From an uncultured Latescibacterota bacterium (lineage in GTDB: Bacteria > Latescibacterota > UBA2968): a stretch of 64,000 nt of DNA. Below, piece after piece: positions 23,425-42,093 of the stretch. The translations under genes were made by a program, and so were the position numbers. The first letter of the stretch is position 1. Every line of letters begins with the position of its first letter. The stretch covers positions 6,191,107 through 6,255,106 of the forward strand of contig OX638329.1 in NCBI GenBank assembly GCA_951812755.1, written 5' to 3'. The notes beneath the pieces were generated by a model. The model saw nothing but the letters and a program-made list of their open reading frames with translations, did no database searches and had not been told where the DNA came from.

Positions 23425-24252
23425 ATGGGTTTTTCGTATTGTTTGAATACCAGCACGATTCGCAACGAGGGTGTTTCTGTGGTCGATGCCATCGATATTG
23501 CGGCGGATGCGGGTTATGATGGGATAGAGCCGTGGGTGGCAGAAATTGATGAGTGGGTTGCGGGGGGTGGGTCGCTGTCTGATATACGCGATAAGGCAGC
23601 GGATAGGGGGATTCAGATTGTCAATTTGATCGCGTTTTTTGAGTGGTCAGTGCCAGAGAATGAGGAGCGGGCAAAAGGACTTGAAGAGGCGGTTCGCTGT
23701 TTTGATATGGCCGATGCGCTCAATTGTACGTATGTCGCGGCTCCGCCTTTTGGGATTCGAGATCGGGATGTGGATTTGTTTTCTGTGGCGCGTCGCTATG
23801 GTGAGTTGATGGATGAGGTTGCCGGATTTCGGGCGAAGCCCCTGCTGGAGTTTTGGGGTATTGCACAGACCCTGGGTACGCTGGGCGAGGCTTTGCTGGT
23901 GGCGGCTGAATGCGGGCGTCCCGATACGGTGCTGCTGGCGGATGTGTATCATATGTACAAGGGTAGTGGACATTTTCACGGGCTGGAACATCTGGGTCCG
24001 GGCAAGTTGGGGTTGGTGCATGTGAATGATTATCCGGCTTCGCCTGGTCGGGATACCATAACAGATGCGGATCGGGTTTATCCAGGGGATGGATTGGCGC
24101 CCTGGGCAGAGATTGTGGCGGGGTTTGAAAATGTGGGATATGAGGGTATGTTGTCTCTGGAGTTGTTTAATCCGAGCTATTGGGAAAAGGGTTCTGTTGT
24201 GGTGGCACAAGAGGGTTTGGCAAAGCTCAGGGCGTGTGTGGAATATAAATAG
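23425..24252 (+). CDS. Sugar phosphate isomerase/epimerase-like TIM barrel
   Basis: 275 residues. The N-terminus MGFSYCLNTSTIR and AIDIAADAGYDGIEPW are the opening strand and helix of the AP_endonuc_2 barrel. Metal-site segments PLLEFWGIAQTLG, TVLLADVYHMYKG, LGLVHVNDYPA and GMLSLELFNPSYW supply the Glu, Asp, His and Glu ligands. TGAGGAGAATAAAA gives the ribosome site and overlaps the sulfatase stop. It probably isomerises or epimerises the sugar released by the sulfatase, as inference. Confidence 0.9.
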   Translation: MGFSYCLNTSTIRNEGVSVVDAIDIAADAGYDGIEPWVAEIDEWVAGGGSLSDIRDKAADRGIQIVNLIAFFEWSVPENEERAKGLEEAVRCFDMADALNCTYVAAPPFGIRDRDVDLFSVARRYGELMDEVAGFRAKPLLEFWGIAQTLGTLGEALLVAAECGRPDTVLLADVYHMYKGSGHFHGLEHLGPGKLGLVHVNDYPASPGRDTITDADRVYPGDGLAPWAEIVAGFENVGYEGMLSLELFNPSYWEKGSVVVAQEGLAKLRACVEYK

Positions 24253-24357
24253 CAGAAACCCATTTGACAGGTCAAGCGTCCAAAAAGTGCTTGACGTAAA
24301 GTGTTTTGCCTATTTCATTTTGTAAAAGTTGAGTTCATTAAAATAACAATTTATGAT

Positions 24358-25134
24358 ATGGCCTTTCCTGAATCTGACAGAATAATATTCGCAAACAACC
24401 CTTTGCAGAAGGTTATTTGCCAGTTGCAATTTCCTGAAATTTTGAAAATTGCAAGCGAACTGCCATCTAATTTTCAAGATCGGATAAGGTCGCAGTACCC
24501 CTATTATGGGGAAGAGAAAGTACAGATTCCAGAGGGGATCTCCAGAATAGTTGAGCAACTTTCGAATATAGGTTCTCTTAAAACTCCCGAAGGACCAAAT
24601 CATAAGTTTGCATCTGAAAATAAAAAAAAATATGTCAATCTGACGCAGGGCTTTATTGCTCTCACGGACAATGGCTACAAGAGTTGGGAAAGTTTCAGTG
24701 AGGAAATGAATTTGGTTGCTAAAGCATTAGACGAAGAGTATAAACCCAATTTTTACACCAGGATCGGACTCAGGTACATTGATATAATTGAGCGAGAGAA
24801 AATCGGTTTAGGTGGTATAGAGTGGTCAGAATTATTGAATCCGGCTCTTATTGGGTTGCTTGGCGACACGACCCTTCAGACAGCACCGGCCCGTATCATT
24901 TCCGAGGCAGAATTCGATATTCGTATCGAAGGACTGTCGAAGGTCAGGCTTCGACATGGTTTGATTTATAAAAATCATCAAGAGCAATACTTGATAGATA
25001 CAGATTGTTATACTGAAGAAAGGAGTGAGTTTGATGCAATCCCTTCAATTCTTAAGTCCTTTAATCGCACAGCGGGGGACCTCTTCCGATGGACTCTCAC
25101 CCCTAAGCTCAGAGATGCCCTTGGACCAGAGTGA
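24358..25134 (+). CDS. TIGR04255-like protein, first gene of an unknown three-gene operon
   Basis: 258 residues. It resembles the sporadically distributed TIGR04255 family: an early NPLQKVICQLQFP segment, a central FIALTDNGYKSWESF motif and a YTRIGLRYIDIIERE segment. The second half is beta-rich (EAEFDIRIEGLSKVRLRHGLIYK). The family has no assigned biochemistry. An upstream in-frame ATG adds 19 residues without a ribosome site. Codon use is more AT-rich than the flanking catabolic genes, indicating acquisition. The last 100 bases overlap the next gene in another frame. Confidence 0.65.
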   Translation: MAFPESDRIIFANNPLQKVICQLQFPEILKIASELPSNFQDRIRSQYPYYGEEKVQIPEGISRIVEQLSNIGSLKTPEGPNHKFASENKKKYVNLTQGFIALTDNGYKSWESFSEEMNLVAKALDEEYKPNFYTRIGLRYIDIIEREKIGLGGIEWSELLNPALIGLLGDTTLQTAPARIISEAEFDIRIEGLSKVRLRHGLIYKNHQEQYLIDTDCYTEERSEFDAIPSILKSFNRTAGDLFRWTLTPKLRDALGPE

Positions 25135-25450
25135 AAGACAAAATGTAAAGGGATATTGGAAATTGATTGGTACTGTGGGAGATTTGGAGCAAGAGATTAG
25201 TTTTTACAATGAACAAGAGGGTGAGAGAAATGAAGTAATCCAGAGATTCTTTTGTCATTTTTTCATATCGGGTTTGCCATCACATGCCTTAGAAGAGGCT
25301 TTGGAAACATTGGCGGATATACTTCAATTTCATTTACAACCACCACCGCCAGCCCGGTTCCAGTTGAAGAGCCAAGAGCAAGAGACGCAACCTAAAATAG
25401 CCAAAGTCGGGAAAACAGTTCCTCGACCAGCATTGATTCTTGACGGTTGA
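25034..25450 (+). CDS. Unknown protein, second gene of the three-gene operon
   Basis: 138 residues. GAAAGGAG is nine bases before the ATG and lies inside the TIGR04255-like gene, so the 100-base overlap looks real. The middle is helical (HALEEALETLADILQFH); the C-terminus is proline-rich and ends KTVPRPALILDG. No family is recognised. The deep overlap implies tight co-expression with the upstream protein, and nine bases separate it from the third gene. Confidence 0.6.
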   Translation: MQSLQFLSPLIAQRGTSSDGLSPLSSEMPLDQSERQNVKGYWKLIGTVGDLEQEISFYNEQEGERNEVIQRFFCHFFISGLPSHALEEALETLADILQFHLQPPPPARFQLKSQEQETQPKIAKVGKTVPRPALILDG

Positions 25451-25459
25451 GGACGTGAC

Positions 25460-26023
25460 GTGTCGTTTGAATATGAACCCTCCCCCGAAGATGGAGCCTT
25501 GATTCAGGGTGAGATATTGCATGGTGTACATGAATTTGTGGCAGATGTACCTGCGCAAGCCCTGTCACAGGATTTGGAAATAACATTTAATCCTATCGAA
25601 CATAACTTGGTAATGGTGATGAACCCGGCTTGTGATTTAGAGTGGGATTATGTATCGCGATTTACTGGCTCCCCAAAGCCACAAAATGAGCTTGCGCAGA
25701 TTTTTTTTTGTGACGTTTATGAGGAAGAAAATATTCGGCAGCGAAGTCAGCTCAATTCGAGTTTGTTTAGAAATGTGAGGAATAACCAAAACGAAAGGTA
25801 TCACCATCTTCCAGAAGCGTCGATTGTAAATAGTGATCAAGTCCGACCTCTACCTGATTTGTATATGGATTTCAAAAATGTCTTTGGTATTGCAACTTTA
25901 AATATTTATCGTGCAATTGAAGAGGGCGGTATAGATAGGATCGCAGTTGTACCACCAGTCTATGTTCAGTATCTGATGCAAAGGTTTTACAATTTTAGGG
26001 GTCGGATTGGTTTACCGGATTAA
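25460..26023 (+). CDS. Unknown protein, third gene of the three-gene operon
   Basis: 187 residues starting at GTG after GAGGACGTGAC. Notable segments are HNLVMVMNPACDLEWDY, IFFCDVYEEENIRQRS, RYHHLPEA and YVQYLMQRFYNFRGRIGLPD. The His, Cys and acidic content might bind a metal, but I see no established motif. The gene ends just before a perfect terminator, closing the operon. The function is unknown; with its partners it is a candidate defence or stress module. Confidence 0.6.
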   Translation: MSFEYEPSPEDGALIQGEILHGVHEFVADVPAQALSQDLEITFNPIEHNLVMVMNPACDLEWDYVSRFTGSPKPQNELAQIFFCDVYEEENIRQRSQLNSSLFRNVRNNQNERYHHLPEASIVNSDQVRPLPDLYMDFKNVFGIATLNIYRAIEEGGIDRIAVVPPVYVQYLMQRFYNFRGRIGLPD

Positions 26024-26040
26024 CCCATTTTTTGATTTGC

Positions 26041-26079
26041 AAAAGCTCCAACAAGATGAACTGCTTGTTGGAGCTTTTT
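26041..26079 (+). terminator. Rho-independent terminator
   Basis: Perfect 14-base arms AAAAGCTCCAACAA and TTGTTGGAGCTTTT around a ten-base loop, ending in T5. It separates the three-gene operon from the MFS transporter gene. Confidence 0.92.
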
Positions 26080-26117
26080 AACTATATGTTCAGTGCCCAT
26101 TCTCACAGAGTAGAAAA

Positions 26118-41698: not shown

Positions 41699-42093
41699 TA
41701 TATTTAATGGATACCCATGTATGGGTCTGGTGGCATACGGCACCAGAGAAACTATCATCCAAAGTTCGCGATACGATCATTAATTTGGACGCAACTGATC
41801 AGCTCTTAATGTCTGTAATTTCAGTGTGGGAAGTTGCAAAATTGGTCGAGAAAAACAGACTCAGATTGGGTATAGAGATTGATCAATGGGTTGCACAGGC
41901 GTTGACTATGTCACATTTTCAATTGCTTCCTCTGTCTCCTGAAATAGCTATCGAGAGTACACGGCTTCCACAGCCTTTTCATCAAGATCCATCAGATCAA
42001 ATGATTGTCGCATCAGCACGCTTGTTTGATGCGACTGTTTTAACTGTGGATCAACTGATTTTAAGTTATCCCCATGTACGTGCGTTATGGTAA
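41695..42093 (+). CDS. PIN-domain toxin (VapC)
   Basis: 132 residues. YLMDTHVWVWW carries the first Asp, SVISVWEVAKLVEK the Glu, DPSDQMIVASARLFDATVLTVDQ the remaining Asp residues. This is the complete VapC active site for RNA cleavage. The final codons (VRALW) lie in a 53-bp repeat that is duplicated at 43961, marking a rearrangement boundary. Full length, so probably functional with the upstream antitoxin. Confidence 0.92.
   Translation: MIYLMDTHVWVWWHTAPEKLSSKVRDTIINLDATDQLLMSVISVWEVAKLVEKNRLRLGIEIDQWVAQALTMSHFQLLPLSPEIAIESTRLPQPFHQDPSDQMIVASARLFDATVLTVDQLILSYPHVRALW

Follow-up and report, generated by a model that had tools for sequence, protein, structure and literature searches.

A three-gene cassette with a TIGR04255 protein in a Latescibacterota genome, a possible tripartite toxin-antitoxin-like module

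What might a compact cassette of three AT-richer genes do within a catabolic operon, with no defence island around it? The question is raised by a locus in the window, a stretch of 64,000 nucleotides from the 6.53-Mb, single-contig genome of an uncultured Latescibacterota bacterium (GCA_951812755.1, contig OX638329.1, positions 6,191,107 to 6,255,106), for which an initial annotation, made from the letters alone, had suggested a self-contained operon that might serve in defence. Its description of the layout was confirmed (Table 1), including the overlap of about 100 bases between genes 1 and 2 and the nine-base gap between genes 2 and 3; the GC content of the cassette is about 38-44%, compared with 51-57% in the genes on either side. 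The terminator that it had called near-perfect has a stem that is perfect throughout and a fold of -22.2 kcal/mol (z = -4.85; 0/200 shuffles as good), and this stem is retained with few changes in the two congeneric copies, L001 and L002. A perfect AAGGAG (25020-25025) lies 8 nt upstream of the preferred ATG of gene 2, and both are kept in the same two copies (three genomes in all). A promoter scan gave results at chance level.

Table 1. Features of the cassette and its insertion site (positions of the window)
Feature	Coordinates	Strand	Description
gene 1	24358..25134	+	ATG start; 258-aa member of the TIGR04255 family; candidate for the shared third component
gene 2	25034..25450	+	ATG start preferred; 138 aa (141 aa with GTG 25025); proposed antitoxin
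gene 1/gene 2 overlap	25034..25134	+	101 bases, different frames (110 with GTG 25025)
gene 3	25460..26023	+	GTG start; 187 aa; proposed toxin, MazF-like fold
intrinsic terminator	26041..26078	+	15-bp perfect stem, 8-nt loop, T-run
inserted segment with cassette	24245..26117	+	~1.87 kb; sugar-isomerase-like gene on one side, MFS transporter gene on the other

Comparison of 11 congeneric genomes supported the view of the cassette as a self-contained and sporadic unit. Three of them carry it (G000, which is the host of the window, G005 and G008), and seven contain a precise empty site in which the flanking genes adjoin and the isomerase stop TGA overlaps the MFS start ATG as ATGA; it is exactly at this 4-base stop/start overlap that the additional segment of the three carriers sits. 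The junction in G009 also reads as empty, with the isomerase match lost at the contig end. Between G000 and G008 the cassette has diverged about as much as its flanks, which indicates that it is old in the genus, and its absence elsewhere in the genus would reflect either loss by recombination with the empty allele or movement between lineages together with the flanks. Such a distribution, along with the mechanical and permissive nature of the ORF search, might be expected of an AT-rich insertion that is merely incidental and has little function, whose likeness in layout to other loci would partly be an artefact of ORF calling. We regard this explanation as very improbable and largely refuted, since all three genes have stayed under purifying selection across a nucleotide divergence of 9-19% and homologous gene 2/gene 3 pairs recur, with their order unchanged, in other lineages. 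Among the three genomes compared, dN/dS was approximately 0.13-0.19 for gene 1, 0.12-0.18 for gene 3 and 0.31-0.34 for gene 2 (overlap excluded), the fastest of the three genes. Thus, purifying selection, the precise empty site and a layout that recurs in unrelated lineages indicate that the cassette is more than a product of chance. The genome of G008 additionally contains, besides its intact cassette, a 37-aa remnant that matches the C-terminus of gene 3 (L098:8318-8428) and looks like a decayed second copy.

Gene 1, for which a resemblance to TIGR04255 had been noticed, proved by its profile score to be a clear member of this family, matching the NCBIfam model over residues 11-256 of 258 with 153.1 bits (E 1e-44) against a curated cut-off of 30 bits for the whole-protein HMM score. 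It gave zero Pfam matches and no PADLOC match, the model name (sporadTIGR04255 in NCBIfam) gives no function, and no paper containing 'TIGR04255' was found in the open-access literature. The AlphaFold (AF2) model of gene 1 (pLDDT 81) has no close PDB relative and no SecB-like or other chaperone match among the Foldseek matches listed. In our reading its architecture is a beta-saddle in tandem or a helix-grip, and it weakly resembles the TBP, guanidino-kinase and PYR/PR-10 folds. Conserved polar residues are few in TIGR04255 and form no obvious active site, and a binding protein therefore fits better than an enzyme.

The statement that genes 2 and 3 were unrecognisable stood as far as described families are concerned: neither had a significant match in Pfam, NCBIfam, PADLOC or PHROG, and in PADLOC neither was matched up to E 1. 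It did not stand for gene 3 in a wider sense, as this gene belongs to a family that is widespread but undescribed, and for which a MazF-like (SH3-like barrel) fold is predicted. A GDI...VVxTQ...CP pattern in the protein had pointed to such a barrel ahead of the structure search, and in the search itself (AF2 model, pLDDT 88, pTM 0.83) the first two Foldseek matches in the PDB were MazF interferases (prob 0.98, E 0.012, and prob 0.85, E 0.14; TM 0.35/0.51 versus MazF). The initial annotation had asked whether a structure would reveal a housekeeping protein; the modelled gene 3 matches no housekeeping fold, and MazF comes first. In sequence, gene 3 has no Pfam PemK match (PF02452), and hhalign against local PemK proteins gave a probability of only 10%, which is above that of the PIN and HEPN controls and weakly favours PemK. 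The RP motif (R26-P27) that is invariant in the local PemK alignment A12 has no conserved equivalent in the gene 3 family, which is instead characterized by the pattern QGDIL - (Q/P)xCDL - YHxL - DF(K/R) - RIGLP and by the invariant residues Q16, C58, D59, L60 and R182. Because the E value of 0.012 is weak, the profile probability is 10% and the conserved residues differ, our claim extends to the fold and stops short of the activity. In a gammaproteobacterium, a fusion protein (L003:5311-6414) consists of a response-regulator receiver domain followed by a gene-3-like domain; the surrounding cluster contains Type I methylase/specificity genes, Dcm and a MORC-like ATPase.

To place the cassette in a broader context, we read the DNA around TIGR04255 genes in 386 sampled genomes, together with plasmid and viral relatives; the genomes were drawn from all ranks of kinship, their quality is uneven and some of the loci are mutually related. 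TIGR04255 is sporadic (51/386 genomes) and is mostly the first of three tightly spaced co-directional genes, typically followed by a gene of approximately 60-300 aa and then by the third gene; neighbouring genes overlap or lie a few bases apart. As ORF calling was permissive, the three-gene counts are based on homologous families and not on ORFs alone. The co-occurrence for which the initial annotation had proposed a search was found, with the three genes together in other genomes; L033, from an unrelated lineage, carries all three genes of the window's set. An overlap of about 100 bases between genes 1 and 2 is also seen in L038, L051 and L111, whose TIGR04255 proteins resemble that of the window, suggesting that this overlap is a trait of one branch. 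L111 has TIGR04255 with gene 2 only, and on a human gut contig (L057:3974-4789) a TIGR04255 gene apparently occurs without a gene 2/gene 3 pair. On a Rhizobium conjugative plasmid (L051:5192-10174), multiubiquitin, ThiF and DUF6527 genes lie directly upstream of a TIGR04255 cassette, neither of whose two partner genes was assigned to a family.

What stands behind TIGR04255 differs from locus to locus, and it does so in a patterned manner. When 63 third genes were clustered, 10 families seen at least twice covered 56 of them. The gene 3 family of the window is the largest (24/63, window included), although five of its members (L099, L104, L108, L109 and L116) were found via gene 3 itself and hence provide no independent evidence for the link to TIGR04255. 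Other third genes include seven HEPN homologues (PDB HEPN match at 5e-8), six PIN proteins matched by Pfam, and DUF7689 and PDC-M32B-like families. Among the second genes, some are annotated as antitoxins (Xre-like HTH, SocA_Panacea), some are PDC-M32A-like, and HTH domains occur at many loci. Second-gene families track third-gene families (HEPN, 7/7; one PIN group, 3/3; HTH with the long xTCDI type), and this co-segregation implies matched pairs. PIN genes account for approximately 10% of the genes at the third position behind TIGR04255 versus a background of approximately 0.26% of all genes in those genomes (509 PIN genes in ~194 Mb, one gene per kb assumed), an excess of about 40-fold (binomial 6e-6 for 5/48, two positions allowed). 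In both G220 and G257, no PIN gene other than that behind TIGR04255 was detected. A natural swap is seen between L066 and L033, where the TIGR04255 proteins are 63% identical and the gene 2 N-termini are alike (z 6.1) while the third genes are unrelated (z -1.4). The window and L038 present a swap of the same kind, but their gene 2 N-termini overlap gene 1 and inherit its conservation. Neither the HEAT-like gene pairs nor several of the singletons can be recognised as TA pairs. HicBA at L080/L082 and PemK at L070 were seen by eye, were unconfirmed by Pfam and were left out of the counts.

Given these observations, we lean towards reading the cassette as a toxin-antitoxin-like module of three parts, with gene 3 as toxin, gene 2 as antitoxin and TIGR04255 as a shared stabiliser or sensor. 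Gene 3 would be a toxin of MazF-like fold that probably acts on RNA, and gene 2, which occupies the antitoxin position, would be its fast-evolving antitoxin. TIGR04255, a non-enzymatic binding protein shared among modules and encoded first in the operon, would keep the antitoxin folded or stable, probably by holding its N-terminal part. When, for instance, a phage protein titrates or changes TIGR04255, the antitoxin would fail and the toxin would stop growth. The analysis establishes the structure and conservation of the genes, the recurrence of the layout, the exchange of matched gene 2/gene 3 pairs behind TIGR04255 and the fold predicted for gene 3; toxicity, neutralisation, the binding and stabilisation of gene 2, sensing and the phage trigger are all steps that we infer. 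Gene 2 N-termini resemble each other where the TIGR04255 proteins do. A hydrophobic segment rich in small residues is present near the gene 2 N-terminus at eight loci (L100, L102, L105, L052, L055, L058, L099 and L104); a common chaperone-addiction segment across the gene 2 set lacked statistical support, with no significant enrichment versus gene 3 (p = 0.11). A C-terminal tail motif of gene 2 for this toxin type was suggestive in L033, L034, L041 and the window, and was not general.

The proposed role of TIGR04255 is modelled on the toxin-antitoxin-chaperone (TAC) systems, in which antitoxins belonging to several families, namely HigBA, HicAB and MqsRA, depend for their stability on SecB-like proteins (PMC5105189); in CmdTAC, a phage defence system, a phage capsid protein outcompetes the SecB-like chaperone (PMC11618068). 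One constant protein with several TA families is a hallmark of TAC, and it is on this ground that TIGR04255 is proposed in a SecB-like role: like Mtb-TAC and CmdTAC, the cassette has three co-directional genes, and one constant partner is combined with PIN, HEPN, MazF-like, Xre-HTH, Panacea, DUF7689 and other families. However, neither the sequence nor the fold of TIGR04255 shows a detectable likeness to SecB, the protein comprises about 250 aa and is encoded first, and no C-terminal chaperone-addiction motif is demonstrated in gene 2. Homology to SecB was tested and found unsupported by Pfam or Foldseek, with SecB absent among the 50 PDB matches listed for the gene 1 model; thus, we do not class the cassette as a member of TAC, although it would be TAC-like in its working. 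With MazEF/PemIK the cassette shares the predicted fold of gene 3 and, at the antitoxin position upstream of it, a small gene that evolves fast; it differs in the lack of a Pfam PemK match, in having a conserved C-D-L and a C-terminal R instead, and in its third gene.

Another arrangement, in which genes 2 and 3 form a two-component TA system and TIGR04255 acts as a regulator or second antitoxin by direct binding to nucleic acid or to the toxin, appears rather unlikely. The TBP saddle is among the weak Foldseek matches of TIGR04255 in both libraries, albeit with TM-scores of at most ~0.3 (query-normalised), and tripartite TA systems that include a regulator have been described (cited in PMC8832971, a Panacea survey that allowed for third genes, termed accessory, and names no TIGR family). 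The HTH domains already present in many second genes would make a second DNA binder unnecessary, and the retention of TIGR04255 while the toxin family changes completely argues against direct binding to the toxin.

Several relatives of the cassette lie close to defence genes. In G046, TIGR04255, gene 2 and gene 3 (L097:13516-15276) form part of a BREX type 3-like operon, which runs BrxF-like, BrxC-like, PglXI, the three genes, PglZ, BrxA-like, where the BrxF-like and BrxC-like genes were named from size, order and sequence. The cassette here takes the position at which, we assume, the BrxHII helicase would be expected. The main text of a BREX survey (PMC12839542) does not mention MazF. Other relatives are near Type I restriction genes, multi-ubiquitin/ThiF genes or prophage lysis genes, and large neighbours matching PADLOC defence families, a descriptive list without a matched control, include PglX/PglZ, DrmMI, Type I/III and IIG restriction, and HEC/PDC candidates. 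At several other TIGR04255 loci, genes 2 and 3 match PADLOC PDC-M32A/B, and the HEPN type weakly matches PDC-M05B, whereas neither TIGR04255 nor genes 2 and 3 of the window match these candidates. These relatives in BREX or near restriction systems and the PADLOC candidates give indirect support to a defence role. On the whole, such a role is plausible; we go no further, as the cassette of the window itself sits in a catabolic operon.

These contexts bear on another explanation, a non-TA anti-phage system with TIGR04255 as sensor, gene 2 as adaptor and gene 3 as an effector that stays silent until activation and would lack toxicity when alone. The relative within the BREX type 3-like operon, the matches to PDC-M32A/B, the receiver-domain fusion beside Type I restriction-modification, Dcm and MORC-like ATPase genes, and the relatives on prophages adjoining lysis genes would all be in line with it. 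We nevertheless consider it improbable, given that the partners include classical components of TA systems (PIN, HEPN, Xre and Panacea) and that the window's own setting is catabolic.

The toxin-antitoxin-like reading also draws support from loci found independently of gene 1. Scans of viral contigs with TIGR04255 found no relative; when gene 3 alone was the query, viral contigs yielded 11 loci, in 10 of which gene 3 is third in a three-gene unit. In four of these the first gene is TIGR04255, in five it encodes a DUF6941-like protein, and in all nine a small gene comes second; in one, gene 3 follows a different protein of 231 aa, and the eleventh locus is degraded. In Firmicutes-type prophages (L100:4048-5606, L102, L103, L105 and L106), DUF6941, a small gene and a member of the window's gene 3 family follow one another, and several of these units adjoin lysis genes; the DUF6941 assignment was confirmed by Pfam in L100 only and made by similarity in the other four. 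These units share with the window the gene 3 family and the three-gene layout, and differ in that DUF6941 (about 140 aa) takes the place of TIGR04255 as first gene. We read DUF6941 as an alternative first gene of the same module. No paper containing 'DUF6941' was found in the open-access literature, and tblastn with one query found no gene 3 on plasmids.

Tentatively, we put forward the possibility that TIGR04255 represents a second, SecB-independent class of TA third components, acting as infection sensor and antitoxin chaperone for several families of unrelated toxins across bacteria, with DUF6941 as an alternative for the same MazF-like family. The new element here is the association of TIGR04255 with exchangeable TA-like pairs. 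If the proposal is correct, a family present in about one-eighth of the sampled genomes, its function so far unassigned, would be a common control element of many TA-like modules, and the toxin-antitoxin-chaperone idea would reach beyond SecB. It would also add a large undescribed family of MazF-like toxins, offer a general route by which phage infection releases toxins, and supply a rule for finding toxin pairs, namely to inspect the gene pair that follows TIGR04255 (or DUF6941). Elsewhere in the window, a PIN-domain gene at 41701-42054 (G000:C1:6232807-6233160) possibly belongs to another toxin-antitoxin pair.
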